A stretch of DNA of 64,000 bases, taken from positions 52,087-116,086 of the IMG/VR virus record IMGVR_UViG_3300031800_000001; one strand, 5' to 3'. This document shows, piece after piece, positions 13,538-64,000 of the stretch. A model generated the notes under the pieces. The model made no database searches. It was not told where the DNA came from and worked only from the letters and a program-made list of their open reading frames with translations. Position 1 is the stretch's first letter. Every line of letters begins with the position of its first letter. Position numbers and translations under genes: made by a program. The stretch comes from a virus.

Positions 13538-14198
13538 CAGAAAAAGCGAGTTGCTCTTCATTCACATCCCCAAAACAGGCGGAACAAAAATAGAAGAAAT
13601 ACTAGATATGAAATTCGCGGGGGATGACCCTAAGGTTTCAAGCGAAAAACTATATGGGTTTGTAAGAATATACGACGAACTCCATGAACTACAGCACTTA
13701 ACATACAAACAAACATTAGATTTTGGGCTGGTCGACAAAAGCCTGTTCGATAAATGCTATAAATTCGCATTCGTCAGAAATCCGCTTGACAGGGTTGTGT
13801 CTGAATATTTTTGGTTAGGATACAAATACTTTTCTAAGTTCGAGGACTTCGTTGAGTTTTTACATAAGAGAAAAGGAGAACCGGATGTTCGCGGTACTGT
13901 AGAAAATTACATGTCTCTCGACTGGCTTTTAAATTCCCCCTTCTATGCGCCCCAACATAAATTCATTTGCGACAGAAGAGGTAAATTAATGGTTGATTTT
14001 TTAGGCAGATTTGAAAACTTCCCTAAAGATTTAGCTACCCTATTGGACAATCTAGGAGTGGAATACGACGAAGAATTTTTATTTAAAAAAGTAAATGCTA
14101 CGAAACACGAAAAATATACCACTTACTACAACAAAAAAACAAGAGACATGGTTAAATCCATATATAAGAGAGATTTCGAAATATTTGGTTACGAATAA
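13527..14198 (+). CDS. Sulfotransferase family protein (third copy)
   Basis: A 223-residue protein with the clearest sulfotransferase signature of the three: LLFIHIPKTGGTKIEEIL at residues about 9-26 (5'-phosphosulfate loop) and CYKFAFVRNPLDRVVSEYFW near residues 83-102 (3'-phosphate segment). The ending YYNKKTRDMVKSIYKRDFEIFGY again matches the family. It closes the enzyme island: it overlaps the second radical SAM gene by 11 bases, and the next gene starts 14 bases after its stop behind a GTGTAAAT motif. It probably sulfates a glycan or a modified protein using PAPS supplied by the host. Confidence 0.88.
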   Translation: MPINRKSELLFIHIPKTGGTKIEEILDMKFAGDDPKVSSEKLYGFVRIYDELHELQHLTYKQTLDFGLVDKSLFDKCYKFAFVRNPLDRVVSEYFWLGYKYFSKFEDFVEFLHKRKGEPDVRGTVENYMSLDWLLNSPFYAPQHKFICDRRGKLMVDFLGRFENFPKDLATLLDNLGVEYDEEFLFKKVNATKHEKYTTYYNKKTRDMVKSIYKRDFEIFGYE

Positions 14199-45789: not shown

Positions 45790-46482
45790 TTAGTTCGTTA
45801 TAGAGCTCGACGCTGCATCCACGTCGTATACATCATAATAAGCGGCAAGCGTCTGACTGCCGCATATAAGTTCACCGTAGCAAATGGGTACGGGGCCGCC
45901 CTCTGTCGAAACGTTTACTGGGCCATTAAATAAGTAGGAAGCTGACATGGCCCCCTCTAAGTTCTTTAGCTCCTCCATCTCAGGGGGCTCCATAAGCAAT
46001 GCCGCTATTCCTGCGGCCAAAAGACCAATTCCAGCCATTATTATCATCGCTCCAATATCGGGACTGATGTAAACGGCTACTAGAATGCCTATGATAATAA
46101 TTATAATAGCAAAAATTATAGTAAAAGTTTCATCCGCGCCCTCAACTACGGGAACTATATCTATTTTTTTCAGCTTGGGGTTATTAATCTTAAGCTCGGA
46201 ATTCCTTATGGCTTCCAGTTGTTTCTTGGTTTTATCTTTGTTGTCGTATATATGGTCAAACCGAATATCTGAGGATGATTTCCATGGCTCATTATTGATT
46301 AATATTTTAAATTTTTGATTTTTCTTCTGCTCTCTGCCGAGTTGTCTGAATAGCTTACCATCTGATAGTTTATTAATTGCATGCATCGCTTCCGAGACGC
46401 TTTGTACGTGCAAGTTCCAAGTCTTCATTCCTACTTTTTTCCCCAGCTTTCCGTGGAGTTTAATTTCAACGGGCTTTTTCAT
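45790..46482 (-). CDS. I: Tail assembly protein I (ubiquitin-like plus hydrophobic segment)
   Basis: A 230-residue homologue of lambda tail assembly protein I. The N-terminal ~90 residues look like a beta-grasp fold (IKLHGKLGKKVG, then SVSEAMHAINKL). Residues about 118-162 form hydrophobic helices (FTIIFAIIIIIIGILVAVYI and MIIMAGIGLLAAGIAALLM). The C-terminal motif SYLFNGPVNVSTEGGPVPICYGELICGS is diagnostic for this family. It overlaps the K-like gene upstream by 17 bases and precedes J by 4 bases. In lambda, I is needed for tail-tip assembly but is not found in the finished tail. Confidence 0.9.
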   Translation of the reverse strand: MKKPVEIKLHGKLGKKVGMKTWNLHVQSVSEAMHAINKLSDGKLFRQLGREQKKNQKFKILINNEPWKSSSDIRFDHIYDNKDKTKKQLEAIRNSELKINNPKLKKIDIVPVVEGADETFTIIFAIIIIIIGILVAVYISPDIGAMIIMAGIGLLAAGIAALLMEPPEMEELKNLEGAMSASYLFNGPVNVSTEGGPVPICYGELICGSQTLAAYYDVYDVDAASSSITN

Positions 46483-47299
46483 GTCTTAAAATATTTGTTA
46501 TTGCTAGTTTATGATTAATGTTAAGTTTTTCTATTTTTGAGATCTGTTTCCATGGGTGATGCAATATCTTGCCATCGCCAAGATAGATCATGGAGTGTAT
46601 TGCTTGGGTTATGTTGTATTTTTTGTTCCATTTTTCGTTCCAAGTTTTAGTTAAAATTACATCGTGTTTTTTGAGAGTTTTAACTTCATGAAATCCGTTG
46701 TGTTTGAGAAAATTTAAGTATACGGGGGTTGTTTTATATTTTTCAATCATTTTTCTCAAGTACGCCCCTTCCTCGTTGTCTTTTACGGATTTAAACAGCA
46801 TGGACATGGTGCATGATTCACCACGAGCTTCGCCAATCACCGAGCCAATAAATTCTTTTTGGCCGGTAAGTTCTATGTTAAAGAATTTTTTATAGTAATC
46901 TTCTACCAAATCTACACATGTGGTAATGCCCGAAGTCCATTCTCTCCCCACGAAAGGAGCAACAAAACCATCTGGTTGATGAGAATCAAAACAATCATCC
47001 TCGACACAGTAAAGAATGATGTTTGTTTCTAGTCTTTCGCTTTCGTGTTTATCAGCCCAAGATAGCTTTTTTCCATCAAAATGAGAATGGTAAATAGCAA
47101 AAAGATCCGAATCTCCAATTTTGTTCTTTAAGTCTTCTTCGGAGATAACACAATGATAGGTAGGATTTTGCGATACATTTTTACATTTTTTGGTAATAAA
47201 GTGACCGTCATTTTCCAAAACAACGCCGCAGCATTCGTTTGGGGATTCTTCCAAGGAATGTTTCTTGATGCTTTTTTTAATTGTTTCTGATATTTTCAA
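46466..47299 (-). CDS. Second tail assembly protein K-like (JAB plus NlpC/P60)
   Basis: A 277-residue protein with two domains. Residues about 14-95 are a JAB/JAMM metallopeptidase-type domain (SPNECCG, then IYHSHFDGKKLSWAD, an HxH-x6-SxxD pattern). Residues about 100-277 are NlpC/P60-like, with TTCVDLVEDYY holding the presumed catalytic Cys, then LKKHDVILT and MIYLGDGKILHHP holding the His residues. This is the plan of lambda K. It is a tandem paralogue of the gene at 47296-48030, which shares ESPNECCG, HSH and ALKKHDVIL/TLKKHDVIL. It overlaps that gene by 4 bases. It may cleave peptidoglycan cross-links at the tail tip or process a tail protein. Confidence 0.82.
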   Translation of the reverse strand: MKISETIKKSIKKHSLEESPNECCGVVLENDGHFITKKCKNVSQNPTYHCVISEEDLKNKIGDSDLFAIYHSHFDGKKLSWADKHESERLETNIILYCVEDDCFDSHQPDGFVAPFVGREWTSGITTCVDLVEDYYKKFFNIELTGQKEFIGSVIGEARGESCTMSMLFKSVKDNEEGAYLRKMIEKYKTTPVYLNFLKHNGFHEVKTLKKHDVILTKTWNEKWNKKYNITQAIHSMIYLGDGKILHHPWKQISKIEKLNINHKLAITNILRHEKAR

Positions 47300-48030
47300 A
47301 ACTGACTTTCGTGCCTTAGTGCGTGTGTGGTTCTTTTTTTAAATTCTTTATTGTACTCTTCGATTCTAGAGTAGCAACTTATTTGGTGGTGTAAAATTAA
47401 ATCATTGCCAACATAAATAGCACCATGACTAGGGTTCTTCTTTCCGTAGCTCTTCATTAGGATAACGTCGTGTTTTTTGAGTGCGGATATGTCGGTAACC
47501 TCTCCCTTCAGGACGACTTCGAACCCTTCGTTAGGATACTCATCAACATACCAATTTGGGTTTGATGTAATATACTCAAAGTTCCTTTCTTTTTCTGGTA
47601 AATCGACGTCTAATTCTTTTTTGTAGTAATCGCGTATTATGGTATAGCAATCATTTTTACCTAGGCAAAAATCTCTCCCTATGTAAAAAGATTCGCATCC
47701 CTTCGGCTCGTATTCTTTAAACTCTTGACTCTTAAGGCTATACATTATGAATTTTATTTCGTGGTGTTCGCTTTGTATTTTGTCGTAATCAGAAAATTCA
47801 CTGCTGTTGATGTGCGAGTGGTAAAAGGAAATTATTTCACCAAAGCACGAGGCTTTAAGGTAGTCGCTTGGGTCAATTGAAAACATCATACGTTTGTTTT
47901 CGGCCATATTTCTACATCTTAGGGCTTTAAGCTGAAGGGTGTCTTCCTCTTGATATAAAATTCCACAGCACTCGTTGGGCGACTCTTCTAGAGCGTGGTC
48001 TTTTATGTGTTTTTTGATGTAGTCTTTCAT
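47296..48030 (-). CDS. K: Tail assembly protein K (JAB plus NlpC/P60)
   Basis: A 244-residue protein with a JAB/JAMM-type N-terminal domain (ESPNECCGILYQ, FYHSHINSSEFSDYD) and an NlpC/P60-like C-terminal domain (KNDCYTIIRDYYKKELDVDLP, ALKKHDVILMKSYG, HGAIYVGNDLILHH). The start was set at ATG 48030, whose product begins MKDYIKKHIKDHALEESPNECCG, because it aligns with the start of its paralogue (MKISETIKKSIKKHSLEESPNECCG region). The frame extends 30 codons further upstream, but that part overlaps the end of gene L and looks unlike protein of this family. It lies 2 bases after L in lambda order. Both copies keep the metal-binding and cysteine residues, so both may be active. Confidence 0.85.
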   Translation of the reverse strand: MKDYIKKHIKDHALEESPNECCGILYQEEDTLQLKALRCRNMAENKRMMFSIDPSDYLKASCFGEIISFYHSHINSSEFSDYDKIQSEHHEIKFIMYSLKSQEFKEYEPKGCESFYIGRDFCLGKNDCYTIIRDYYKKELDVDLPEKERNFEYITSNPNWYVDEYPNEGFEVVLKGEVTDISALKKHDVILMKSYGKKNPSHGAIYVGNDLILHHQISCYSRIEEYNKEFKKRTTHALRHESQF

Positions 48031-48032
48031 CG

Positions 48033-49325
48033 TTACTCTGATCCATGTAGTTTTTCGACGGCTGGGAAGCCTCCAAATGGTAAGCAACCGGCATGCGTAT
48101 TTGTGCCGCAGCCACCACATGGGTTACTCATTGAGTAAACGCCGCAAGTTGTTGAGGTACCAATCATCGAATCCGTGGATGTGCCAAAAATACGTACATC
48201 TCCGTGCCTTTTGTACTCATCCGACCATCTTAATTTGCACCCCTTTATTGTCTTGGAGCACTTGTCTTCCAGCCAATAATTGTTATTGGGTGGAATTGTT
48301 GATAAAGTTCCTCCTTGCGCGGTTGAAGCTGCGGGTACGGCGTCTTTTGCTATAAAATAATATTTTATATCATTTTTAGTTATGTAAATATTTTCTCCTA
48401 TAGAATAGGCCCTTTCGGGATCATACGCTGTTGCCGCTTGTTGTGGGCGGTAGTCTGTACCGAGTTTGTCTATGAAAAGCTCGTCATTTTCGTTTGCTAA
48501 AGGGGGAGCTTTACAGGGAAATTTAAGTTCGCTGAAGCTATCCGTGCCAAAGGCCGATTCGAGTTGGTCGTTAGTCATGTTTTGCCCAACTTGCTCGTAT
48601 TCGTAAATGCACCCTTCTCCTCTGTACTGAAATTGACAATACCTTGAAATAACCAGCCTCATTGGAAGCTTTAGATTTTCAAAATCAATAAAGGAACCCA
48701 ACTCAAATTCTAATCCATTTTTGCTCTCTACGCTTTTTCTGTTTATGAAAAATACTTCCCTAGGGAATTCGGCTAGTGGATCTGGTGCAAACCCTTCGGG
48801 TATTAAAGTGTCGTCACCCAAGGTAACTCTTCCTCCTCCGGGTTGGATATCATAAAAGTTTTTCAGATCTAGATACTTAGCGAAAGTCCTTACTCTTGTT
48901 ACTTTAGCTCCAATTAGATCATCTAGCTTTCTCACCATTGTCTTAAAGTCTTTAAACATCGATTGCTGGTCTTCTTTTTCATTCGACATCATACTCATTC
49001 TGGGGGTAGGCGTAGAGCTCCTCGTGCTGCTGTCGAACCCCTCCACACTTATAGGTAAGGGGTGGTATTCTTCACCCTTCCAGTATATTTTTTGTTTAGT
49101 AAGTTTTAGGTTATTATGGAATCTAAAAACGGCTTCTCCGGCTAAAGTAGTTTCAAGATAGGGCATGCTTTCATCTATCAGCAAATCTTCTAAATCTATT
49201 TCGTATAGAGTCACAACAGCAGACGGAGCCACCTTACCCATCTGGGTGACAATTTTTTCCCCGGACTGCTTCGATCTATTTATTATGACCTTCGGGAAAT
49301 CACTTAATTTTTTATCACTTGACAT
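48033..49325 (-). CDS. L: Minor tail tip protein L (candidate iron-sulfur cluster)
   Basis: A 430-residue homologue of lambda tail-tip protein L. The N-terminal part (GEKIVTQMGKVAPSAVVTLYEIDLEDLL) and PLPISVEGFDSS match the family start. Four cysteines are placed as in the family: ISRYCQFQYRGEGCIYEY near residues 227-236, and DKCSKTIKGCKLRWSDEY near residues 375-382. In lambda L the C-terminal domain binds a [4Fe-4S] cluster through conserved cysteines, so the same is likely here. About 130 residues separate the two pairs, more than in lambda, and include a region (AYSIGENIYITKNDIKYYFIA) that looks like an inserted small carbohydrate-binding-type beta domain. It lies between M and K, as in lambda. 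The C-terminus has further Cys/Gly (SNPCGGCGTNTHAGC). Confidence 0.85.
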   Translation of the reverse strand: MSSDKKLSDFPKVIINRSKQSGEKIVTQMGKVAPSAVVTLYEIDLEDLLIDESMPYLETTLAGEAVFRFHNNLKLTKQKIYWKGEEYHPLPISVEGFDSSTRSSTPTPRMSMMSNEKEDQQSMFKDFKTMVRKLDDLIGAKVTRVRTFAKYLDLKNFYDIQPGGGRVTLGDDTLIPEGFAPDPLAEFPREVFFINRKSVESKNGLEFELGSFIDFENLKLPMRLVISRYCQFQYRGEGCIYEYEQVGQNMTNDQLESAFGTDSFSELKFPCKAPPLANENDELFIDKLGTDYRPQQAATAYDPERAYSIGENIYITKNDIKYYFIAKDAVPAASTAQGGTLSTIPPNNNYWLEDKCSKTIKGCKLRWSDEYKRHGDVRIFGTSTDSMIGTSTTCGVYSMSNPCGGCGTNTHAGCLPFGGFPAVEKLHGSE

Positions 49326-49946: not shown

Positions 49947-50900
49947 ATGGCATTCAAGATAATCAATAGAGAAAAGCAGGAGGTTTTCATAGGATCTGGG
50001 CAGGTACATGGGGTGCAGTCCATATCATATAATTGGGCAATACCAGAAGCGCCGATTGAATTCATAGGCCAGTCAAACTCCCTTATAGTCCCGCAGGGGC
50101 CACAAATAGGGGATTTTTCAATCAATATGCTAGTTGTGGATACTGACCCACTTGTAAAATGCATAAGTAGCGGAGCTTTCAATGGGTTTATAACTGACGA
50201 CAGAAGAGATCCCACTAGATTTTACAGTTTTTATTCGGGGTATTTAACTAGATATACCCTATCATGCGGTGTTGACTCATTACCCCAAGTAAACGCGACC
50301 TTTAGGGTAGTGGGGGATATGGGGAAAATTCCATCTGGATCGTTACCGCCAGAACCAGCGGCAGAATTAAGATACATAACTGGAACAACCCCAGCGCAAA
50401 CCGCACCTACAGGATTCGCGGATAATCCGGGTGATGGGGGATATAGAATTGGTGCGCCGACAAGCGTTGAGATAACAATGGACGATTTTGAAGCCAATAT
50501 TGTAAATAGTTTTACATTAGGGCTTGAGATACCGAGGAGAGACTATTATAAAATAGGAAGAAGGAGTCCGTTTTCCGTAGAAATAGACTATCCCGTGGCG
50601 GCAACAGCGGATTTCACAATTGAAGTCAATGGTGCTGACATAGGGTATTCTGGCAGTACATTTAGAGGGTATCCATGCAAGGCGAAACTTAAGAATTTTG
50701 ACGTTAAAATAAAAGATTACCAAACTTATCAAGTAATAACGCAATTTAATTTCACGGGGGCCACTTTAATAGGCGAAAATTACCAAGTAGACGTCAATAA
50801 TAACTTAAAAATACAAGCCAGATATAAGGTATACATTGAGAACCTTCTGTCCGAAACCGGAAACCTCAATACTCCACAATTAGTTACAATTACTAACTAA
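49947..50900 (+). CDS. Tail tube-like protein (paralogue 2)
   Basis: A 317-residue protein related to the main tail tube protein at 17005. Residues about 98-122 (YLTRYTLSCGVDSLPQVNATF) match its FITSYTTECSVGNFPTVTI segment. Residues about 188-230 (FTLGLEIPRRDYYKIGRRSPF, then IDYPVAATADFTIEVNG) match the second-half motif. The first 60 residues contain IGSGQVHGVQSISYNWAIPEAP, a strand-turn-strand start common in tube proteins. It is the first gene of the plus-strand block after the divergent gap. A role in a specialised ring of the tail, such as the distal tube or a collar for fibres, is inferred from similarity and from the giant fibre-like gene that follows. Confidence 0.6.
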   Translation: MAFKIINREKQEVFIGSGQVHGVQSISYNWAIPEAPIEFIGQSNSLIVPQGPQIGDFSINMLVVDTDPLVKCISSGAFNGFITDDRRDPTRFYSFYSGYLTRYTLSCGVDSLPQVNATFRVVGDMGKIPSGSLPPEPAAELRYITGTTPAQTAPTGFADNPGDGGYRIGAPTSVEITMDDFEANIVNSFTLGLEIPRRDYYKIGRRSPFSVEIDYPVAATADFTIEVNGADIGYSGSTFRGYPCKAKLKNFDVKIKDYQTYQVITQFNFTGATLIGENYQVDVNNNLKIQARYKVYIENLLSETGNLNTPQLVTITN

Positions 50901-50905
50901 TTTCC

Positions 50906-50921
50906 AGTGTAATTGATAAAG
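50906..50921 (+). promoter_or_regulatory. AGTGTAATTGATAAAG motif between tube-like genes
   Basis: AGTGTAATTGATAAAG lies in the 41-base gap, with its core 35 bases before ATG 50942, leaving room for a leader with AAAGAGG as ribosome binding site. It is almost the same as the 16 bases at 20735-20750. Confidence 0.5.
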
Positions 50922-50941
50922 AGGTACAAGGTTTTTGGGCA

Positions 50942-51859
50942 ATGATTTTTTTCAACAATTGTGACGTGGTGGTAAACGGTACGGGTGTAATGGCCGAGCA
51001 GGTATCATTGTCTACCGCTAACTCAATTGTTGCTGTCCGAGCTATGGGCAAAAACCTCGCAGAAGGCTCTGATCCAGACGGACAATATTCAGCCGCTGTG
51101 CGCTTTTCTTACTACTTGGAGGTGGAAAAAGACCCGGTTTACGCAAACGTTTTAGATTATTTGGGCTTGGTTCACAACACGGTTGACCCAAACTATCACG
51201 ATATTCCGCCAAATGTAATAGGGGTAGCTGGAGTAACTGGAGTCTACTACTTGGATAGCTACAGCGTAAGCGTGTCATCAAACGACATAATCAAAGCTAA
51301 CGCTTCATACGTGGGGTTTGTGCCGCCCACGGGTACAGTAATCAAGCGATCAGGTGTAGTCGACAAGGGGTACGCGGAAAGCTTTAGCGGATTAGCTCAC
51401 TCTTGGACAACGTCCCTTCTCGCTAGTGATGGGACAATATTGGCTCCAGTTTATGATTTTTCCTATAATTTCAGAGGGGTAGTAAATCCAATTTACGTAT
51501 TAGGGCAAAAATACCCGAAGCAAGTACAACTCCTAACCGCGGAAGAAACAGTGAATGTAGTTAAAGACACGTCTTCCATAAATATAAGCGGCCAAGGCCC
51601 CGACTCTCATCCAATTACTTTTTACGGAGAAAGTGGATGGGCTTTATTTAGTGGGCAGCTAGAGGACGGATCATATTTCAGCGAATATGATCCCGAGTCC
51701 CCACCTAGGGTAAGAATTGAACCATTAAGTGGTCTATGCGATACTTCTTTGCATTTTATGGAATTTGATTTTTCAGGAATGAAAATAGAAACTTCAGATA
51801 TATCTATAGACACAAACGATTTTGCAAAAACTTCGTACACACTTAGGAGGTACCATTAA
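50942..51859 (+). CDS. Tail tube-like protein (paralogue 3)
   Basis: A 305-residue beta-rich protein. Near residues 103-126 it carries YLDSYSVSVSSNDIIKANASY, the same strand-turn motif as the tail tube protein. Near residues 155-205 it has a second-half pattern (SWTTSLLASDG, then NPIYVLGQKYPKQVQLL). The start CDVVVNGTGVMAEQVSLSTANS parallels CTVLLNNRSFVAANLSFDINAN in the next protein, so these two are closest to each other. ATG 50942 has AAAGAGG upstream with long spacing. Its stop overlaps the next ATG by one base, so the pair is translationally coupled. Virion placement is inferred. Confidence 0.55.
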   Translation: MIFFNNCDVVVNGTGVMAEQVSLSTANSIVAVRAMGKNLAEGSDPDGQYSAAVRFSYYLEVEKDPVYANVLDYLGLVHNTVDPNYHDIPPNVIGVAGVTGVYYLDSYSVSVSSNDIIKANASYVGFVPPTGTVIKRSGVVDKGYAESFSGLAHSWTTSLLASDGTILAPVYDFSYNFRGVVNPIYVLGQKYPKQVQLLTAEETVNVVKDTSSINISGQGPDSHPITFYGESGWALFSGQLEDGSYFSEYDPESPPRVRIEPLSGLCDTSLHFMEFDFSGMKIETSDISIDTNDFAKTSYTLRRYH

Positions 51860-52968
51860 TGTATTATACATATAAAAATTGTACCGTACTTTTAAACAAT
51901 CGTTCTTTCGTTGCTGCTAATCTTTCGTTTGACATAAATGCCAATTTAGAAGCACGGTATTTTGCAAGTAAAAAATACTCTCATTTTTACCAAGCGTCGG
52001 AACCGATTCGTGGGACCATGTCTTTTACGTACTTTCTAACCGGGCAGGATTATTTTCATGATTTAATATATAAAGAAGACGTAGGAATAGAAGGAAACTT
52101 TGGGCAGATGAGCTTTCCTAGTGGACATCTTACAAGCTACAGGATAAGTGCGACGCCCAACCGTATGGCGCGGGCAGACGTAGAGATAGAGTTTTTTGAT
52201 TTTGAAGGCCAACTTGGGTCAGGCTCGTTTACGCCGAACACAGAAAAACCGAGCCAAGACAAAAAAATGCTAAACTTCTTGGACGCGACGATTAACGGTA
52301 CGGGTCTAACAGACGCTAACTCATTGGTGACAGACGCTTCATTCTCTTATTCAATGGAGGTAAGGCCCGTCTATAATTTAGTAACGGGGACAGGGCTCTA
52401 TAACATAAAGCCAGATAGCATCTCTTTCGGTCCAAAAAAATTAGAAACATCCGTGACCATCGATAACTTAAGTGGCGCTATGAGAATGCAGGGAGAAAAT
52501 ACGGTACTCGGAATAGAATTAAGAGACAGGGAAACGCGATCAAGACAGGTGTACTACGAGGCTAGGGGATTTACAAATGTAAAAAGTATACAAGCAGATA
52601 ATCAAAGTTTCGCAAAAAACTCAATACGGGTAACTCAAGAAGCTCCGAGCTTTTTAGCTCAAATAACGGGGCTCGTTGAGGACCACCCAGACAACGGAGG
52701 AGAAGGGTGGGGACCCACGGGTGGAGCGCCGGGGGACACGATAGACATAAGTGGAATAAATTTTTTAAGCTATCCAGATGTATGGATTGGTAATTTTGAG
52801 TTGTTTGAGTGCCAATATGTCCACGACAATTTAATAAGATTTGTAGTCCCAGAGGAAACGGCTGGAGGAGACGGGTACATATATTTAAAAAATGGAGATT
52901 ACGCCAACGCATCAACTATGGGATTTACGTCTTTATCTTCTAGTATATTAATAACCAGAATAAGGTAA
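51859..52968 (+). CDS. Tail tube-like protein with C-terminal IPT/TIG domain (paralogue 4)
   Basis: A 369-residue protein. Residues 1-270 follow the tube-like plan: CTVLLNNRSFVAANLSF at the start, HLTSYRISATPNRMARADVEI near residues 90-110, and FSYSMEVRPVYNL near residue 160 with the paired strands after it. Residues about 285-365 are an extra IPT/TIG (Ig-like) domain: GGAPGDTIDISGINFLSYPDVWIG, then LIRFVVPEETAGGDGYIYL. The next gene starts 2 bases after its stop and begins directly with more IPT/TIG domains. This suggests that this protein anchors the giant neighbour to the tail, or that the two once formed one chain. An Ig-like domain at the end of a tube protein is known from lambda V. Confidence 0.6.
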   Translation: MYYTYKNCTVLLNNRSFVAANLSFDINANLEARYFASKKYSHFYQASEPIRGTMSFTYFLTGQDYFHDLIYKEDVGIEGNFGQMSFPSGHLTSYRISATPNRMARADVEIEFFDFEGQLGSGSFTPNTEKPSQDKKMLNFLDATINGTGLTDANSLVTDASFSYSMEVRPVYNLVTGTGLYNIKPDSISFGPKKLETSVTIDNLSGAMRMQGENTVLGIELRDRETRSRQVYYEARGFTNVKSIQADNQSFAKNSIRVTQEAPSFLAQITGLVEDHPDNGGEGWGPTGGAPGDTIDISGINFLSYPDVWIGNFELFECQYVHDNLIRFVVPEETAGGDGYIYLKNGDYANASTMGFTSLSSSILITRIR

Positions 52969-52970
52969 GC

Positions 52971-55900
52971 ATGTCATCAGGAATAATAGGCCAGACAGTT
53001 AGGATCGAAGGGCAGGGGTTTGTCCAAATCGACAGCGTCTCTTTCCCCTTCGAGCCTAATACGGATGCCATTGGCGGGATAGATTATACTTTTGCTAATT
53101 TCTCTTGGGTCAATGAAGAACTATTAATTGCCACAATTCCAAATGGCGCTCAATGGGGGAATCCAAGGGTGGGTTCTTCGCTTAGGAAGCAAACGGGAAC
53201 CGCAGGCGAATTTTTTGTCCCTATGCCCCAAATTTTAGGGGTAACCACGGACAAACCAGAGCCCGGGTCGCAAATGAGCGTGAGTGGTCTGGGGCTATCG
53301 GGGGTTACTGGGGCATTTTTTGGCACAGGGCAATTGCCGGCGACAACCGTGCACAGCGGAATGGTCGATATAAATTTTCTACCGCTCACCGTTCCTTATG
53401 GACACATAGATGGGCCTTTGAAAATAGTGGGGCAAAGTGGGCTGAATGCCACATACCCCACGATGAAAACAAACGTCATTATTACGGGGGTTCAGCCCTC
53501 TTCTGGAGAAAGGCATAGACCCGGAGGGGGAGAACAGCCATTTGATGATATCGTAATTTCTGGAGAAAACTTTGCAACAGGGGCTCTTGTAAGGGCGTCA
53601 ACAGACCCCTCTAGTCAAGATTATAACCGTTGGTTGGTTGATTTCAATGGGGCAGAAACCGGATTTGGGCTAATAGGGACAACAGGATTAAGTGGTAAGA
53701 TACCTTCCAATGCGAACTCGGGCCTTCTGTCAATAAGAAATTCACTTGGGGGCTCTCACGCTAATGGAATTGATTTTTATGTGATTCCCGGACCACCTGT
53801 TCTATCGGCAATAGGTCCAGTCACTGGTAAACCCGCGGGTAGGCACGGAGGAAATCGGGATCATTCCATATTAATTAGTGAGGGTGACTACGTAACGCTG
53901 TCTGGAGAGTTTTTTGGCAACACTACAGGCTTATATGTCTATCCAATAGGACAAAGAGATGGGGATCATAAAGAAAACTTAATTAACCCACAGGTAATAG
54001 CATACGGAGCGAATAAAGACAATACCCGAATAGACTTTTCCCTGCCAACAGGAACGGGAAGATACAGAGACTGTGACGTAGTAATAGAAACGACAAGGGG
54101 GTCTGCAACCGGAGAAAGCTCTTTATACATAAAGTACCCTCCGTTCATAAAAGGATTTGAGCCAAAAAGCGAATTCAAAGGAAACAAGGTAGACATAACT
54201 GGTAGCGGATTTTTTGATGATTCCGAAACTAATGTATATTTTAGTGGGTTGGCTAGTCATGGAGGCTTCTCTGGAAATATAGGAGCAAGCATATCAGGAA
54301 TAGAGGGCACCCCTGATGCTGGTCTTCAGGTGATGAGCGTGTACGTTCCCGGCTTGTCTGAAGATTCTAACTTCTCCATAGTTGTGGATAACAGTGTTGG
54401 TAAATCCACAAGCCCAGAGGGGCAATATTTTGGGTTCTTTGCTGAACCAGAAATTTCTGGATTTTCTCCCACTTCTGGAACACATGGAACCACGGTAATA
54501 ATAAGCGGAACAAGCTTAGTAAACTTAGTCTCAATTTACCATGGTAATACACCAGTAACGACCTACTCTGTTCTGGGGTCAAGGGGAACTGGAATAAGTT
54601 TTCAAATACCCTCAAAGCACGCTTACTTAACTAATGATTATTTATATCGCGAACTCCAAGTCCCAATAAGGATATCAGCAGTAGGCGGATCAACAACCAC
54701 AGCGGAAAGGTTTCAAACAATACCGGATAGCATATTTTACAGTGGTCATTATCCAGACTTGGTTGCAAGAAACGATTTCCTAAAAATATCTGGTGCGAAT
54801 TTAGAATTAGTTACAGGAGTAAGGTTTACAGGAAAAAACGACACCCAGACAACAGTAGAAGTAGTCCCAGTAGGTTACTATTCCTTACTTGAGCCGACGG
54901 GATTTGGTTTTCCAAAGACAGGATTAAACATAAGAGTGCCGATAGACGCAGACGACGGCAAGCCTATGCTTATGGGCGAATTTACAAACTCGCAAAGCAT
55001 TCTGCCAATAGAGGTTTTTGAAATAGTAACACTGGACCTTGTTAAGCCCGGAACAGGCATATATGGGGATTCGATAATACTAAGCGGGACAGATACCCAT
55101 CAGTCCAAATATTGGTTTCAGGGGTATTCAAGTGGACACATGGATATGTCGAATATCTCTAGTGGGGTGGGGCAATTTACATCAGCACAACAAGGCCCCT
55201 CATTTTTAGTGACCCAAGGGGGCGGAATAGGGGGAGGAATTTTTGACCCAACTGTCGAGGTCAGACTAAACAAGCACCCAACGTGGGATTACATAAAACC
55301 ATTAAACGGAAATGATATATATAAGTATGGGGCAGATGGCGAAGAGTATGTAGAGCTTCAAATTCCAGCTTGTCTTCTTGAAGACACAAGATTGTTTACG
55401 TCAAGGCGAGATAAGGCGGATGTTGACCTTACTATAACTGACTATCAAGACCTGTCAACAACTATCTCTGCGTATCCAACGATATCTGGCATTTCAGCAA
55501 CAACAATTAGAGTAGGGCAAACATTATACATCTCAGGAATAAACGCCGAAAAAACCTTCATTAACGCTATAGGAATTAGTGGAACAGGACTAGCTCACCC
55601 CGGAGAAGAAGGCGGAGGAAATAGGGAAATAGAATTTGTTAGTAAATACAGCACAAGACAAGACTTGCTTTTCCAAGACGGAACCGAGGCTACTTGGTTT
55701 AATCTGGGGGATTATTTTATTCCGAATAGTCCATTTCAGTTGCTAGACAGCTCCGATCCATTAGGACACATATGGAACGCAGAGATAAGAAGGCACATAC
55801 ACACAAGCGGATTAAGAGACGAGGGCGTAGCTAAAACCGGCCTATACAACATACCAATAACCATATCAGACAATTTCGTAGGAACAGGGTTTTTATTCTT

Positions 55901-58900
55901 CTGGTTGGATGAAGACACTGTATACAAAAGTGGCCAAACAATTTTTGAACAAAGCTTCGCGAAACCGCTTAGGCAGTTATATAGGGAAAACATAGCGGGT
56001 ACGCCAAGATTTTACGACACGGTTGATGTAAATCAAGACGGGCAAGTAACTGCCGAAGACTTGTTCTACTGGAGCGGAGAAGCCGGAACCACAAATATCC
56101 ATAAGAAAGAGGGAAACTTTTATAGCGGATGGACAGGTACGGAGACTTACCAAAGATTAAGAAACGATTTATTATTCAAAATTCCAATTATAATCGAGCC
56201 AGAAATATTGGCCATAGGATTTACGGAACCCACAAGTGGATACCACGGCCAACAAATAAGGCTATACGGCACTGGACTGGCAAACATAACTGGCCTGTTC
56301 ATGAGAGACAGCGGGTATGGAATATCAAATTACAACCAATACGACGCCAGCAGTAGTTTAGCGAAAAGAGAATACAACAATTTGTATTTCCAGATTCCTT
56401 CTGACTTTCCAATTTCAGACGGCACAGGAAATGCAAGCGGAACACTGTTTGCTCAATCATCATTTTCATCAGACTCCAATGCCGACATGGGTTCTTTGGG
56501 GCTATTAAATGTTCTTAAGTCTCCAACAATAACGAGCTTCACCCCGAAAGAGGGGGTAGTCGGAAAAACAGTAGTCACTGTCTATGGGGAAATGCTGCAT
56601 TATACTTCTGATCTTCAGTTTATATCAAATTTAGATGGTGATTTACATAGTTCACCCGTATGGGACAAGGTGGGTGATGGAGCCGGCGGAACATACTTAA
56701 CCGGACTCGTTCCTACAGGGTTAGTTACATTCCCACAGGACTTCAAGATTAGGATAACTACCGATGAAGTTGGCGCAAGCTCAAGTCAACTTGGAGATTT
56801 CATAATATACGAGGGTGATACCACCATATATGGTAAATTAACCGTATTGGGGGATACGGTTGTAGAAAACGACGTCAACGTATCTGGAAGATACCTTGTC
56901 GACTCAGTGCCTATAGAGGACACAATAGAGCATAAGCTTCACAAAGCAATAATACTAGAGAATAAACTCCTCCACCTAAGCGCCGAAACAAAAAACAGTT
57001 ATACCGGTGACGGAACTTGGCAAGACCTCACTACGTACAACCACGATGCGACACTTTATAATTCTCCAGTACTAATCAACAGCACTCTTCAATTCGGGTG
57101 GGATGAAGGAAGAGTCCCGAAGGATCAGCACGCAATAATTCCAATAACAAACGACCTGAAGCCGGAAACATTTACGCTTGGGGTCATGTTTATGCCGCTG
57201 GAGGTAGGGGGAACGGTTGGAGATCCGCTTATACAGGTGCCCAATACTCATGGTACTATAGCGGCATCCTATGAGATAACCTACGACGTAAACAAGAGGT
57301 TTTATTCAAAAATAACATTTAATGAGGGGTCAGACACGAGTGATACATCGTCTACATTATTTACCGCCCCAGTAGAGACGGGCCAGTATTCTCTTGTTAA
57401 CACGACTTGGGATGGGAGTACTCACAGCCTATACCTGAATGGAAGCCTTGTTGGTTCGGACAGCGTGGGGTCAAAAACTATTAATTACGTGGACCCAAGC
57501 GTACCCGTAAAAGATTTTCATATACTAACGAACTCGACGGCGACAAAACACATCAAGGGGCTTCTAAGGAATGTCCACTTATATTCTGGAGCACTTTCAC
57601 AAGATAACGTTTATGAAAATTACAGAAGGCTTACCTCTATAGTGGTGCCGGAAAGAGACTTCGAAATATCAGGTGGTGCATTGCGGGTATCTGAATTTGG
57701 AAATACCGGGCACTTTGCTTTAATTAGAGACAATAAAATGTTCCTGTCTGGATCGGGGGCCCAATTTTTCATTAATGATGACGAGGTTTTGCCCGCATCC
57801 GAATACCTTTTTCAAAATATAACAGGAACCAATATACAGTTTGACCTTTCTGGAGTAAGAAGAGACTTGACTCTAAGGTTCGGGGAGGGAACAGGGGTTG
57901 GTAATATAGCCGGGTCCGCGTCTTATGTGGGAGACGGCGTAACGAATGCATTCCATCTTGAACTAACAGAAGACAACATTAAAAACGTTTGGGTTTCTCT
58001 TGATGGATCGACACTAACCCCGACCACGGACTACACAATAGACAATCTTACGGGGGTAGTCTTCCCCCAAGCACCAAAGGTGGCGGAGGAGGTGCTCATA
58101 CGGCAATTCACTGATACCGTGGTCCCGACACCAATTGAGTATAACATAAATCTGTTTATGACCGGGTCTGGCCAAAGGCTGACTATGACTGATTTGTCAA
58201 CCGGGACATCGATTCAATTCACGGGTAGCGTAGATTCGCTAGAGATAGAAAACTATAATATATACGACAGCGATGTAAGTATCACCGGCTCCGTATCTTC
58301 GGTAAGAAACGAGTATTCGGGGGTAACAACAAACATATATAACCAAGCCTTGGCTACGGCAACAAACCTGTTCAATGAGCCGGGCTCTGAAGTTAGAGCG
58401 TACTCAATAAATCCAAATGTGTTTGTAGCAAACGAGGGGTCAGTAAGTTATATCTCTGGGGGAGAAGATATAATCATATACTCCAATACCGGTCAGGGAA
58501 GGGTATATATAACCGGGGGTCGAGGCCACACGATAACCGGAAATGTTACCATGACTGGTGGCACACATACTGTCTCTACGGATGATGTACAAATTTATAA
58601 TTCGGTAAATACTATTTACCCCACTGGATCGACAAATATAAGCGGGACTTCGAATATAATTTATAATACCGGCGACGGGTTGATACAGTATATTTCGGGA
58701 ACAGATATTTCGATATTTGGGACTATAAGCGGCACGACACTAAGTACTAATGCATTTAATATAAATGATGGGGCAACGGCGTTCATAACCGGTACAAATC
58801 CAATCATAAATATAACAGGCGGCACGAACATTATGTCTCTTACGGGAGAGGCGATTATAACCGCTAATGCTTCTTTCTCTTTATCGAGCCTTACTGGAAC

Positions 58901-61900
58901 AACGGTAAACATTACCGGAAATGCTGGGTCAATACACAACGCGCAGCTTGTCACCGTGGAAGGTCCGGAAACAGTTTTCGCGAATGACAGCAACATCGTA
59001 AACATAACAGGTCATCAAATAAACAGTTTAGTGGTGAGCGGAAGAGGCTCTACCACAAACATAGAATTCGACACTGGTATTCTTTATTTTAGTGGAAACT
59101 TTTTCGATTCTAACACTCTGACCCTGCACACCGGAAGAATAGACGCTACGGGTATTAGTTTCGATATAAGGCAATCGCAAAACGTTCACGCAACGGGGGG
59201 GACAGTAGTCGTATCAAATTCTACGGGTGTATTTAGCGGAGTTAATATTAACGTGATTAGTTCCACGGGTGTGTTCTATTCTGCAAAAGAACAACCAATT
59301 AACATAACAGGGGGAACAAATTTGTTTACTTCTGGTACCGCCACTGTGTCAGGGAACTTGATGGCAACCAGCGGGGGTAACATAAGCGCGGTGATGACCA
59401 ATGCTCCGCATATAAGTTTCCATAATTCAACAGGGTCAATCACGGCAAACTCTGGGTCTGTGTTCGTAACGGGATCAATCGTGAACTTAAGCGGGCAAAC
59501 GAACTTCGTTACTGGCAATTACATTTTTGTGCAAAGTGGAGCCAGCATATTCAGCGGGGTTGAAATAGGGGTTACTGGGGGGGTCAATACCATAACAGTA
59601 CAAAGCGGGAGTGATTTATATGTAATAGGCGGATCGTCAAGCGCGCTTCTCAAAAGCGGTAATGTTTACATTACTGGGGGTGCAAATACGACGTACAATA
59701 TGCTCATTAATGAGGATGGCGGATACATGGCCATAACCGGCGACATAAACTATATAACCGGGGGGGTCATTCAGACAATCACAAGTAACCAAACAATTAT
59801 TTCTGGAGCAGTTGCGGAGAGCAACGTGGTGCGCAGCATCATTACGGAAAGCGCAGTGATCGGTAGGAGTACGGTCACCATAACTAATTCTGATGATATT
59901 ACCGTGGCTGCGGGAGCCGTAGTGGAAACAATTACAGATAATATAATTACAAATTTCACCCTAGAAGGGGGCTCTCCAAGAATCTACAGGGGTACTAGTA
60001 TATTTAATGATGTAACTGGCCTTATTGTCATAACCGGATTAGAGACTCTTAACATATCAGGCATGCAAAGCGGAGCCACCATAGGAATTACGGGGGATGG
60101 AATGAGCCTGTATAATCCATCCGGTGGCGTTGTCAACTTAACTGGCTCAAACTACAAAGTGTTTAATACCGGAGGAAACATTTTCATAACCGGTTCGGAT
60201 ATAACCGTATCTGGAGATCAGAATTTTGTAACCGGATTTGTAACCATTAATAACGGTTTCATAACTGGCAGTACCGTGACCATCACGGGGGATGGCACCA
60301 CTTACGTATCAGGCGGAAATATTGATGTCAATAGTTTAAACACTGAAATAAACGAGCTTAAAGATAGTATTCTACAATCTTTTGGAAACGCAAACATAGA
60401 CGAGTCAACGGTTTCTATGCTGTCGGCTGGAAACACTTATGTTTCTGGGTTCACGACAAGCGTGGTTGCTAACCCCGGTTCTACCACGTATATAACGGGT
60501 TCAAATATTGATCTTGATAACTTTGGGACAGTGTCGATAACTAATTCGACATACACAGATGTGACCGGCACGACTATCCTTATTACAGACGGAATAAATA
60601 CGGTATCGGGACAACAATTTTTTATAACCGGGGGAACAAACTACATAAGTGGGAATGACGTTAGGATAACCGGAGGCAATAACACAATAACAGGTACCGC
60701 ATATATAACGGGTACGACCTATTCTACAGGCATAGTCTATGCAACGGGTAATATTTACGCGACAGGAATTACTTACTCTACGGGCAACACATACGCAACC
60801 GGAACAACTTACGCAACCGGCGCAATATACACAACGGGGACAACCTACGCAACCGGCGTAATCTATGCGACGGGTACGATTTACGTGACAGGGACAACCT
60901 ATGCGACGGGTATAACTTACGCCACGGGAATCCAACACATAACGGGTACAGCTTATACAACGGGGACTCAATACATAAGTGGTACCACTTACGCCACAGG
61001 AACCCAATATATAACGGGAGAAAATATCTACACCACGGGGGTCAGTTATGTAACTGGGACAGTCTACGCAACTGGCACAATATACGCAACGGGAACGACC
61101 TACGCGACGGGGACAACCTACGCCACGGGAACCCAATATATAACGGGAGAAAATATCTACACCACGGGGGTCAGTTATGTAACTGGGACAACTTATTCCA
61201 CAGGCATAACCTATGCAACCGGGACCGTATACGCCACGGGTATCAACTACGTAACCGGGACGGCTTATGTAACAGGAACCACTAGTTATGTAACTGGAAC
61301 AGCCTACATTACTGGAACCAACAACTATGTAACTGGAACAGCCTACGTAACCGGCACGGCTTACACCACGGGTATTAATTACATAACCGGCACGGCTTAC
61401 ACCACGGGTATTAATTACATAACCGGCACGGCTTACACCACGGGTATCAATACTTACGTAACTGGTACGGCTTACGCTACGGGTATTAATATCTACGTAA
61501 CCGGCACGGCTAATATAACCGGGGGTCATAACTTCGTAACCGGAAGAGGCATAACCATTCAAAGTGGAACCATAGGGATAACGGGAATAGAGTCCGGCGC
61601 TATTCTTAATGTATATAGCTCAGATATAAGGATGACGGGTGATTGCAGCGGAGTGAATATACACGCCGGTGCACGACTTTTCTTAGCTGACACGGGGGTC
61701 ATAGACTTTACTAACTTTACAAATTTAGTCCTTGATGGAGGAACAGGATTCATAAGCGGGACGAACATTAGTGGTATACATATAACCGGGGGAATAACTC
61801 ATATCACGGGTACCATAAACGCAGACACAGGTATCGTAATATACGCCGGTGCGGAAGTGCATTTACACAATACGGGTGTCTATCATATTCCCGAGGGGGA

Positions 61901-64000
61901 ACCGGTTCATGTTCACAATGAGGGGATAGTATTTGCAACGGGATCGGTAATAAATGTTTTTGCCAGTGGAACCGGTAATTATACAGGTTATAATATAAAT
62001 GTAACGGGTGGAACAAACTATATTACCGGTACAAGTGTTTCAATAACAGGAGGAACAAACTATATTACCGGTGCTGTTTTCGGGGGAATAACTGGCGGAA
62101 CGAATTACTTATCAGGTACAACTTTTTATGTTTCAGGACATGGGAGCTCGATAACTGGCGGCTCGGTATACGTAACCGGAGGAGGCAATATAATTTCAGG
62201 AAATATTGCTTACGTAACCGGGAATCAAGCTTTTGTTACTGGTGGAACGGTTTATATAACAGGCAACTCAATTAACGTATCTGGGGTTTCAAATTACGTA
62301 ACTGGTTATGATATAAATATAGAGGGTGGAATTACTTATCTTTCTGGAACAGGAAATATAACCTTTGGCGATGGCGCGATAGGAAACCTTACCGTTCAGG
62401 GCGATACTTTTATAACGTCAGGTGATTCTATAAATGTAACCGGCGATTCGGTGTATATAACCGGAACTGATATAAGCGTAACGGGGGGTATCGTTTATGT
62501 AACTGGAAGCAGTTTGTCGGTGTCAGGCTATAAGTCCTACGTCTCTGGAAATTTTGTTTATGTAACCGGGGGTGCTGTTTACGCCACGGGCACCACTTAC
62601 GCAACTGGAACTACTTACGCTACAGGCACGACCTATGCCACGGGCACCATCTACTCGACGGGCACAACCTATGCCACAGGGACTACCTACGCTACAGGCA
62701 CAACCTATGCCACGGGCACTATCTACTCGACGGGCACTATCTACTCGACGGGCACCACCTACGCTACGGGCATAACCTACGCCACGGGCACCATCTACGC
62801 CACAGGTATCAACTATATAACCGGTACGGCCCACGTAACGGGAATCAACAGTTATATAAACGGGACAGCTTATGTCACAGGAGAAACCAGCTACATAACC
62901 GGAACAGCCTATGTGACAGGAGAAACCAGCTATATAACCGGCACGGTTTACTCCACAGGAACATCTTATGTAAGCGGAGTGGTCTACGCAACAGGCGTCA
63001 CCTACGCAACAGGAACAACCTACGCAACAGGTATTAACTACATAACCGGAACGGCCTACGTGACGGGAACCAACAGCTACATAACCGGAACAGCCTATGT
63101 GACGGGAGAGACCAGCTATATAACCGGCACGGTTTACTCCACGGGAATATCTTATGTAAGCGGGGTGGTCTACGCAACAGGCGTCACCCACGCAACAGGA
63201 ACAATCTATGCAACAGGAACCACTTACGCAACTGGTAGCTCTTTCTATGTAACTGGAATTAATTACATAACCGGAACAGACATAAACGTAACAGGAATCA
63301 ACTACATAACGGGTGGAACAATACGCATAACCGGCGGGACTAATGTATTTACGGGGGAACTTGTGCAGTTGGTTTCTGGCACATATTACGTGACAGGCGG
63401 AACAGGTTTAAGCATACATGGGGGAACCGTTTATATAACTGGCGGATCTGGATTTAACGTTCCAATAAGCAACTCAACCGTGGTCTTAAGTGGTTCTGGG
63501 CATAATGTGACAATTGAGGCTGGGGCGTCGCTGATTGTGGAAGATACCGGCGTTTTAGATCTAACACAGTTCACTAATCTTACATTTATAAGTGGGACAA
63601 TTAATATAAGCGGTGTTGTAAGTGGGATAGATATAACGGGTGGGGTAACAAATTTCCAAAGTGGAACAGTCATATCCGGGAGTGGGGTAGTTATAGGGAG
63701 CGGCGCAGTTGTTAATATACTAAATACTGGAATATTTACGATAGCAGAGCAATCTACCGTAACGGTGTTAAACACCGGAACTGTTAACGCAACCGGAACT
63801 AAAATATATGTTACGGATGGGCTTAACTATCTTTCGGGGGGAGATATATACGTAACAGGAACAGCTTACGCCACAGGCACTACCTACGCTACGGGAACGA
63901 CCTACGCGACGGGGACAACCTACGCCACGGGAACCCAATATATAACGGGAGAAAATATCTACACCACGGGGGTCAGTTATGTAACTGGGACAACTTATTC
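52971..64000 (+). CDS. Giant IPT/TIG, LamG and hexapeptide-repeat adhesin-like protein (cut by window end)
   Basis: An open frame of 3,676 codons from ATG 52971 that is still open at the window edge. Residues 1 to about 1150 are successive IPT/TIG-type Ig folds (GEQPFDDIVISGENFATG, FKGNKVDITGSGFFD, SGTHGTTVIISGTSL). Residues 1019-1030 form an EF-hand/dockerin-like loop (DVNQDGQVTAED). Residues about 1339-1561 are LamG-like (DGTWQDLTTYNHDATLYNSP, TWDGSTHSLYLNGSLVG). From about 1600 on it is beta-solenoid-like, with repeats such as GGTNYITG, then arrays of a six-residue Tyr-x-Thr-Gly-Thr-x unit at residues 2575-2850, 3201-3436 and 3627 onward. Cysteine is almost absent. There is no membrane segment in the visible part. 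A very long tail fibre or virion surface adhesin is inferred; the N-terminal neighbour may anchor it. The very high Thr/Ser/Gly content makes it a possible target for the glycosyl/sulfotransferase island. Confidence 0.85.
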   Translation, partial: MSSGIIGQTVRIEGQGFVQIDSVSFPFEPNTDAIGGIDYTFANFSWVNEELLIATIPNGAQWGNPRVGSSLRKQTGTAGEFFVPMPQILGVTTDKPEPGSQMSVSGLGLSGVTGAFFGTGQLPATTVHSGMVDINFLPLTVPYGHIDGPLKIVGQSGLNATYPTMKTNVIITGVQPSSGERHRPGGGEQPFDDIVISGENFATGALVRASTDPSSQDYNRWLVDFNGAETGFGLIGTTGLSGKIPSNANSGLLSIRNSLGGSHANGIDFYVIPGPPVLSAIGPVTGKPAGRHGGNRDHSILISEGDYVTLSGEFFGNTTGLYVYPIGQRDGDHKENLINPQVIAYGANKDNTRIDFSLPTGTGRYRDCDVVIETTRGSATGESSLYIKYPPFIKGFEPKSEFKGNKVDITGSGFFDDSETNVYFSGLASHGGFSGNIGASISGIEGTPDAGLQVMSVYVPGLSEDSNFSIVVDNSVGKSTSPEGQYFGFFAEPEISGFSPTSGTHGTTVIISGTSLVNLVSIYHGNTPVTTYSVLGSRGTGISFQIPSKHAYLTNDYLYRELQVPIRISAVGGSTTTAERFQTIPDSIFYSGHYPDLVARNDFLKISGANLELVTGVRFTGKNDTQTTVEVVPVGYYSLLEPTGFGFPKTGLNIRVPIDADDGKPMLMGEFTNSQSILPIEVFEIVTLDLVKPGTGIYGDSIILSGTDTHQSKYWFQGYSSGHMDMSNISSGVGQFTSAQQGPSFLVTQGGGIGGGIFDPTVEVRLNKHPTWDYIKPLNGNDIYKYGADGEEYVELQIPACLLEDTRLFTSRRDKADVDLTITDYQDLSTTISAYPTISGISATTIRVGQTLYISGINAEKTFINAIGISGTGLAHPGEEGGGNREIEFVSKYSTRQDLLFQDGTEATWFNLGDYFIPNSPFQLLDSSDPLGHIWNAEIRRHIHTSGLRDEGVAKTGLYNIPITISDNFVGTGFLFFWLDEDTVYKSGQTIFEQSFAKPLRQLYRENIAGTPRFYDTVDVNQDGQVTAEDLFYWSGEAGTTNIHKKEGNFYSGWTGTETYQRLRNDLLFKIPIIIEPEILAIGFTEPTSGYHGQQIRLYGTGLANITGLFMRDSGYGISNYNQYDASSSLAKREYNNLYFQIPSDFPISDGTGNASGTLFAQSSFSSDSNADMGSLGLLNVLKSPTITSFTPKEGVVGKTVVTVYGEMLHYTSDLQFISNLDGDLHSSPVWDKVGDGAGGTYLTGLVPTGLVTFPQDFKIRITTDEVGASSSQLGDFIIYEGDTTIYGKLTVLGDTVVENDVNVSGRYLVDSVPIEDTIEHKLHKAIILENKLLHLSAETKNSYTGDGTWQDLTTYNHDATLYNSPVLINSTLQFGWDEGRVPKDQHAIIPITNDLKPETFTLGVMFMPLEVGGTVGDPLIQVPNTHGTIAASYEITYDVNKRFYSKITFNEGSDTSDTSSTLFTAPVETGQYSLVNTTWDGSTHSLYLNGSLVGSDSVGSKTINYVDPSVPVKDFHILTNSTATKHIKGLLRNVHLYSGALSQDNVYENYRRLTSIVVPERDFEISGGALRVSEFGNTGHFALIRDNKMFLSGSGAQFFINDDEVLPASEYLFQNITGTNIQFDLSGVRRDLTLRFGEGTGVGNIAGSASYVGDGVTNAFHLELTEDNIKNVWVSLDGSTLTPTTDYTIDNLTGVVFPQAPKVAEEVLIRQFTDTVVPTPIEYNINLFMTGSGQRLTMTDLSTGTSIQFTGSVDSLEIENYNIYDSDVSITGSVSSVRNEYSGVTTNIYNQALATATNLFNEPGSEVRAYSINPNVFVANEGSVSYISGGEDIIIYSNTGQGRVYITGGRGHTITGNVTMTGGTHTVSTDDVQIYNSVNTIYPTGSTNISGTSNIIYNTGDGLIQYISGTDISIFGTISGTTLSTNAFNINDGATAFITGTNPIINITGGTNIMSLTGEAIITANASFSLSSLTGTTVNITGNAGSIHNAQLVTVEGPETVFANDSNIVNITGHQINSLVVSGRGSTTNIEFDTGILYFSGNFFDSNTLTLHTGRIDATGISFDIRQSQNVHATGGTVVVSNSTGVFSGVNINVISSTGVFYSAKEQPINITGGTNLFTSGTATVSGNLMATSGGNISAVMTNAPHISFHNSTGSITANSGSVFVTGSIVNLSGQTNFVTGNYIFVQSGASIFSGVEIGVTGGVNTITVQSGSDLYVIGGSSSALLKSGNVYITGGANTTYNMLINEDGGYMAITGDINYITGGVIQTITSNQTIISGAVAESNVVRSIITESAVIGRSTVTITNSDDITVAAGAVVETITDNIITNFTLEGGSPRIYRGTSIFNDVTGLIVITGLETLNISGMQSGATIGITGDGMSLYNPSGGVVNLTGSNYKVFNTGGNIFITGSDITVSGDQNFVTGFVTINNGFITGSTVTITGDGTTYVSGGNIDVNSLNTEINELKDSILQSFGNANIDESTVSMLSAGNTYVSGFTTSVVANPGSTTYITGSNIDLDNFGTVSITNSTYTDVTGTTILITDGINTVSGQQFFITGGTNYISGNDVRITGGNNTITGTAYITGTTYSTGIVYATGNIYATGITYSTGNTYATGTTYATGAIYTTGTTYATGVIYATGTIYVTGTTYATGITYATGIQHITGTAYTTGTQYISGTTYATGTQYITGENIYTTGVSYVTGTVYATGTIYATGTTYATGTTYATGTQYITGENIYTTGVSYVTGTTYSTGITYATGTVYATGINYVTGTAYVTGTTSYVTGTAYITGTNNYVTGTAYVTGTAYTTGINYITGTAYTTGINYITGTAYTTGINTYVTGTAYATGINIYVTGTANITGGHNFVTGRGITIQSGTIGITGIESGAILNVYSSDIRMTGDCSGVNIHAGARLFLADTGVIDFTNFTNLVLDGGTGFISGTNISGIHITGGITHITGTINADTGIVIYAGAEVHLHNTGVYHIPEGEPVHVHNEGIVFATGSVINVFASGTGNYTGYNINVTGGTNYITGTSVSITGGTNYITGAVFGGITGGTNYLSGTTFYVSGHGSSITGGSVYVTGGGNIISGNIAYVTGNQAFVTGGTVYITGNSINVSGVSNYVTGYDINIEGGITYLSGTGNITFGDGAIGNLTVQGDTFITSGDSINVTGDSVYITGTDISVTGGIVYVTGSSLSVSGYKSYVSGNFVYVTGGAVYATGTTYATGTTYATGTTYATGTIYSTGTTYATGTTYATGTTYATGTIYSTGTIYSTGTTYATGITYATGTIYATGINYITGTAHVTGINSYINGTAYVTGETSYITGTAYVTGETSYITGTVYSTGTSYVSGVVYATGVTYATGTTYATGINYITGTAYVTGTNSYITGTAYVTGETSYITGTVYSTGISYVSGVVYATGVTHATGTIYATGTTYATGSSFYVTGINYITGTDINVTGINYITGGTIRITGGTNVFTGELVQLVSGTYYVTGGTGLSIHGGTVYITGGSGFNVPISNSTVVLSGSGHNVTIEAGASLIVEDTGVLDLTQFTNLTFISGTINISGVVSGIDITGGVTNFQSGTVISGSGVVIGSGAVVNILNTGIFTIAEQSTVTVLNTGTVNATGTKIYVTDGLNYLSGGDIYVTGTAYATGTTYATGTTYATGTTYATGTQYITGENIYTTGVSYVTGTTY
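60693..61520 (+). repeat. Hexapeptide array 1 (Tyr-x-Thr-Gly-Thr-x)
   Basis: About 276 codons built from an 18-bp unit encoding variations on T-T-Y-A-T-G, with occasional one-residue insertions (TSYVTG, NIYVTG). Third codon positions vary widely, showing age and selection on protein. A 36-bp unit (TAYTTGINYITG) is repeated three times almost unchanged at about 61344-61450. Confidence 0.9.
60999..61190 (+). repeat. Identical 63-bp copies inside array 1
   Basis: 60999-61061 and 61128-61190 are identical over 63 bases (encoding GTQYITGENIYTTGVSYVTGT), 129 bases apart. A third copy is at 63930-63992. The identity contrasts with the drifted codons around it and points to recent gene conversion or unequal recombination. 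Confidence 0.88.
62571..63278 (+). repeat. Hexapeptide array 2
   Basis: About 236 codons of the same six-residue unit, starting with a run of TTYATG/TIYSTG and passing into longer ETSYITGTAYVTG units. The segment TSYVSGVVYATGVTYATG and its near copy with ISYVSGVVYATGVTHATG (about 62960-63200) show a recent internal duplication. Confidence 0.88.
63849..64000 (+). repeat. Hexapeptide array 3 (continues beyond window)
   Basis: The same unit starts again after a 570-base linker. Its last 110 bases in the window (63891-64000) are identical to 61089-61198 in array 1, an offset of 2,802 bases or 934 codons. Confidence 0.9.

Follow-up and report, generated by a model that had tools for sequence, protein, structure and literature searches.

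A giant reading frame beside phage tail genes carries heptad repeats and long arrays of a Tyr-x-Thr-Gly hexad

The stretch analysed here (the window) comprises the last 64 kb, bases 52,087–116,086, of a virus record of 116,086 bases, and holds tail genes on both strands together with one giant reading frame that runs into the contig end (Table 1). The tape measure gene is followed on the opposite strand by those for the hub protein J and the lambda-like assembly proteins, beyond which lie two conserved genes that matched no family, a TIG-domain gene and the giant gene. At ~0.15 nm per residue, a tape measure protein of this size, longer than the one with 5,002 residues in Thermus phage P23-45 (PMC10770324), would mean a tail near 900 nm. 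Among the assembly genes, the two encoding the JAB/NlpC-P60 tail protein K are adjacent (46466–48120, minus strand), one being weaker on both domains. The window also encodes a collagen-like tail fibre protein of 1,348 aa (195–4241, plus strand) and, amid structural genes (9757–14198, plus strand), a radical-SAM-like protein together with sulfotransferase-like and SPASM-like proteins recognized by eye, a block of possible modification genes.

Table 1. Features of the tail module and of the giant gene, in window coordinates.
Feature	Position	Strand	Basis or remark
Tape measure protein, 6,037 aa, LysM domain	20761..38874	+	Family/PHROG matches
Central tail fibre / hub protein J	40758..45785	-	phrog_31, E 2e-125
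Lambda-like tail assembly genes I, K (two copies), L	45790..49325	-	Family/PHROG matches
Two conserved genes of the same upstream block	49947..51859	+	Synteny; tail-tube-like by position only
TIG-domain protein adjoining the giant gene upstream	51859..52968	+	PF01833 above cut-off; kept in relatives
Giant fibre gene, 5′ part, 3,676 codons	52971..63998	+	Runs past contig end; full-length relative 8,003 aa
Ig/TIG-like N-terminal domains, residues 1–1330	52971..56958	+	32–36% identity to relatives' gene A
LamG / concanavalin A-like lectin domain, residues 1385–1547	57123..57611	+	PF13385, E 1.4e-12
T7 tail-fibre N-terminal-like linker, residues 1650–1717	57918..58121	+	PF03906
Irregular heptad region A	58218..60695	+	[TS]G spacing, position-specific make-up
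Boundary point of relatives' gene A / gene B, fused here	59220..59241	+	Mapped from relatives' alignments
Hexad array 1 (xxYx[TS]G)	60696..61505	+	[TS]G spacing, make-up by position, AF2 model
Heptad region B	61506..62576	+	Relative's counterpart above LbR_Ice_bind cut-off
Hexad array 2	62577..63280	+	[TS]G spacing
Irregular heptad region C	63281..63869	+	[TS]G spacing
Hexad array 3, truncated by contig end	63870..63998	+	3′ 110 bases duplicate 61089–61198

The giant gene has no stop codon up to the contig end, and it is open at its 3′ side because the contig itself finishes there; the unfinished frame with Tyr-x-Thr-Gly hexad arrays described in an earlier sequence-only reading is thus borne out. 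In the second half of the protein, successive [TS]G motifs are mostly spaced by six residues (95 times) or seven (61 times), the former concentrated in the three arrays of nearly pure hexads which that reading had noticed (residues ~2576–2845, 3203–3436 and 3634–3676). Y-x-[TS]-G recurs at six- to seven-residue spacing up to 30 times in succession, a run that never exceeded two in 1000 shuffles of residues 2001–3676. All synonymous codons are in use at the fixed Tyr, Thr and Gly of the hexads and, relative to the nearest relative, dN/dS is 0.15–0.16 in the arrays and similar in the remaining protein, indicative of purifying selection; hence, the repeat is maintained at the protein level.

The order of domains along the whole protein is Ig/TIG domains, LamG lectin, T7-fibre-like linker, long repeat region, C1q and a short tip. 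Within the N-terminal part, one TIG domain (PF01833) exceeded the Pfam cut-off (24.2 versus 20.9 bits; piece 54126–54470), as did the lectin domain (Laminin_G_3; 48.4 versus 27.6 bits). PF03906 scored 19.4 bits in the window, below its cut-off of 25.2, but 31.9 bits in a relative (L082). The N-terminal 2,000 residues found no match among phage records, and the N-terminus matched no tail-fibre family in PHROGs. Collagen-like profiles, including the tail fibre families phrog_28263 and phrog_3420, were rejected, since glycine does not occur at every third residue: the matches were caused by the six-residue spacing of glycine, with Tyr midway.

Two relatives with ~88% identity to the window (L001 and L002) likewise stop inside array 1. 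This termination of the lineage's contigs within arrays, and the final 110 bases of the window (63891–64000), which exactly copy 61089–61198 where the relative differs, are what one might expect if the long arrays were an artefact of tandem repeats being looped or mis-stacked during assembly, and because of the duplication the extreme 3′ end of the window may indeed be an assembly loop. For the arrays as a whole, however, we regard an artefact as very improbable: the three separate records are concordant through array 1, dS between the window and L001 is ~0.4, and complete related genes of 3,546–4,453 codons occur. The number of hexad copies varies between relatives, a count that may be in error in short-read assemblies.

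A scan for hexad-coding DNA located a further contig, C27 (L019 + L008 + L029; 37,422 bases), from the same sample as L001, whose minus strand starts open within a hexad array. L001 and C27 share a terminal overlap of 134 bp, at the end of the former and the start of the latter, with one mismatch and the reading frame kept. The window is continuous across this junction and collinear until its final residues, apart from gains and losses of hexad units. Moreover, the giant gene is followed by the same downstream genes in C27 as in three other records (G004, G005 and G008), which supports the join. The joined protein, which derives from two contigs of a relative and not from the window phage itself, has 8,003 residues (826 kDa, pI 4.4). 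The continuation that had been anticipated beyond the window was thereby found in a close relative, and by comparison with it the window's own gene is probably of similar full length, ~8,000 residues. The C-terminal part of the relative, downstream of where the window ends, contains a C1q domain (PF00386; 28.1 bits, cut-off 23.7), nearest in sequence to cerebellin among PDB entries, and a short tip without repeats. By eye, the L029 part of C27 also carries RecA-, DnaB-, primase-, fatty acid desaturase- and halogenase-like genes.

With a DNA pattern encoding the heptad GGTNYITG, we found six further IMG/VR contigs (G004–G009) with giant heptad-rich genes and a gene order largely common to the window, the two shortest covering just part of it. 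J, I, K and L share one strand and are succeeded by two or three conserved genes and the giant gene or genes, opposed by a ~250-codon gene, one that starts with MHLVESYATNCG or a similar sequence, and a glycosyltransferase-like gene. In G004, G005 and G008 the giant is split into two genes, A (2,186–2,309 codons) and B (3,546–3,774 codons), while G006 has a differing set of 1,037, 801, 4,453 and 1,530 codons. Gene A aligns to residues 1–2085 of the 8,003-residue protein and gene B starts at 2078, so that the two form one frame in the window lineage, with a longer middle part. Runs of Y-x-[TS]-G in G004–G009 reach two motifs at most, so long hexad arrays were noted only in the lineage of the window. 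Phage proteins had been suggested as the place to look for the hexad, and it is present in relatives of the window's lineage, whereas a pattern search of IMG/VR and 84,980 species genomes gave no convincing in-frame homologous array. Pattern matches elsewhere were mostly short or out-of-frame tandem-repeat DNA, and tblastn matches in Salmonella phages Sasha and Sergei, opposite in strand to the annotated gene, were deemed chance.

The main repeat of the protein is the heptad x-x-[NV]-Y-[IV]-[TS]-G, with a position-specific make-up of G/T/N – T/N/S – I/N/V – Y (45%) – V/I (75%) – T/S – G, and that of the hexad is T/I/V – T/A/I/V/N/S – Y (78%) – A/I/V (79%) – T/S – G, where the residue preceding Thr-Gly is thus a small aliphatic one in ~80% of units. 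Because the two agree position by position, the hexad looks like a heptad that lacks one residue. A 200-aa heptad block of a relative matched LbR_Ice_bind (PF21300) with 34.9 bits, above the cut-off of 30, and the window's own heptad block scored 27.0 bits, below it; reversed, unit-shuffled and fully shuffled heptad controls gave no match to this family, nor did either of two hexad arrays, for which the whole of Pfam offered nothing convincing. The proposal that the arrays represent a new solenoid type may hold as regards a distinct Tyr-hexad packing, but not as regards unrelatedness to known repeats, given that the heptad from which the hexad seems to differ by one residue resembles LbR_Ice_bind, a family with the repeat XXNXVXG (PMC6834126). 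The stated difference from the classical left-handed hexapeptide holds, since there was no Pfam hexapeptide match and the fixed residues are Tyr, Thr and Gly.

Modelled with AF2 over 196 residues (5 sequences), array 1 was strand nearly throughout, with pLDDT 67 and pTM 0.63, and took the form of a parallel beta-solenoid, albeit at modest confidence; a solenoid had been suspected in the sequence-only reading. The model superposed on parallel beta-helices at 2.3–3.0 Å over ~190 residues, including 5ny0 (Z 17.4, 2.3 Å, 196 residues) and the antifreeze protein 3p4g (Z 15.2, 3.0 Å, 194 residues), compared with only ~12 Å rmsd for left-handed hexapeptide enzymes; 3ult was absent among the structural matches listed for this model. 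A second model, of mixed heptads and hexads, was of low confidence (the mean pLDDT of the two being 56 and 67) and gave no significant match in Foldseek. Repetitive models easily reach middling Z, so modelled handedness and coil size are not to be trusted. Alternatively, only the heptad parts might be ordered and the hexads be low-complexity sequence or disordered linkers rich in Thr, Tyr and Gly, which the very low complexity, few charges and modest model confidence of the hexads would suit. We nevertheless consider disorder unlikely, for Tyr, Thr, Gly and the small aliphatic residue before Thr-Gly are strictly kept while codons are free and dN/dS is 0.15, and the array model is all strand and superposes on parallel beta-helices.

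Unit properties (core, Tyr, Asn and length) alternate along the repeats (lag 2 z 3.8–5.2, compared with −3.1 to 2.0 at lag 3), and this period of two, which may partly stem from 36-base duplications, suggests two units per coil. It conflicts with a coil of three hexads, ~18 residues, which is how the AF2 superpositions may be read with modest confidence. Known C1q domains are trimeric and phage fibres are usually trimers, and with the weakness of the single-chain models this leaves some room, if rather little, for arrays in which three chains intertwine into a beta-structure like that of phage spikes, with one repeat per chain per layer; against it, the period-two alternation fits a two-unit coil within a single chain, and the heptad match is to a monomeric beta-roll family. 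The fibre as a whole is perhaps trimeric, to judge from its C1q domain. Our tentative reading of the arrays, possible rather than probable, is that the Tyr-hexads pack in a distinct way, with coils of 12 or 18 residues and unbroken ladders of Tyr and Thr; the unit would derive from an LbR-type heptad that lost one residue, and would have been tandemly amplified in what would be among the longest phage fibre proteins.

As for function, a long tail-associated fibre is the likeliest role because the tape measure, hub and assembly genes adjoin and LamG and, in the relative, C1q domains are present; judged by this context, the product is probably a receptor-binding fibre of an uncultured long-tailed phage with a lambda-like tail module. 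In such a fibre, the Ig/TIG-rich N-terminal 1,300 residues would probably dock on or decorate the tail, and ligand binding is predicted for LamG, C1q and the short tip at the C-terminus. In addition, ~6,000 residues of heptads and hexads would fold into a parallel beta-solenoid, long, acidic and rich in Thr and Gly, serving as a rigid spacer of ~140–240 nm, according to coil size; virion location, receptor binding and solenoid geometry are all predictions here. The hexad arrays may have arisen when the heptad lost one residue and 18- or 36-base units were then amplified in tandem, which would make rapid change in fibre length possible, the length being adjusted through gain and loss of repeats. 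Likewise, two genes separate in relatives would have become a single 8,003-codon frame in this lineage, although for both the contraction and the fusion we infer the direction.

The LbR_Ice_bind match also raises an ice-binding or surface-templating role, as in grass antifreeze or ice nucleation proteins. The latter, with 16-residue coils, have been modelled as a beta-solenoid that displays ranks of outward Thr and a stacked Tyr ladder (PMC9418140), and the Tyr ladders and Thr faces envisaged in the sequence-only reading, while retained in ours, are to that extent not unprecedented. The gene, though, sits in a tail module and carries lectin-like domains, and nothing indicates an icy habitat. 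Secreted solenoids, too, commonly bear outward Thr. An ice-related role is very unlikely, and we retain that of a tail-associated fibre.

Large solenoid fibres are already known as a kind; what appears new to the collections searched is the Tyr-hexad contraction of an LbR-type heptad within an 8,003-residue single gene. If the join is true, the ~2,200- and ~3,500-codon genes of relatives and the single 8,003-codon gene make up a natural series, with heptads next to contracted hexads, for tracing how a beta-solenoid fibre grows, and such phage fibres are candidate stiff, self-folding protein rods. On the same proviso, 8,003 residues slightly exceed the largest of the giant proteins predicted for huge phages (maximum 7,694 aa, some tentatively structural; PMC7162821), and the genome class here, to the extent seen, is a smaller one. 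Marine phages share with this gene a C1q-like domain beside tail genes, in proteins that adjoin tail fibres and have been proposed as receptor-binding (PMC3909814), but here C1q is one domain within an 8,003-residue solenoid fibre. The six-residue unit and its small or aliphatic position are common to the left-handed beta-helix hexapeptide of LpxD and GlmU, from which the phage hexad differs in its fixed Tyr-x-Thr-Gly, and ice nucleation proteins differ from the phage arrays in their 16-residue repeat and cellular surface location, with no sequence match in this analysis. The phage heptad compares with the grass antifreeze beta-roll (PF21300; PDB 3ult, an ice recrystallization inhibition protein-like entry with a weak sequence match, E 0.035) in its xx[N]x[V]xG pattern, aliphatic core position and glycine turn, and departs from it in having Tyr before the core residue and Thr/Ser before Gly, in extending over thousands of residues and in being phage-encoded.
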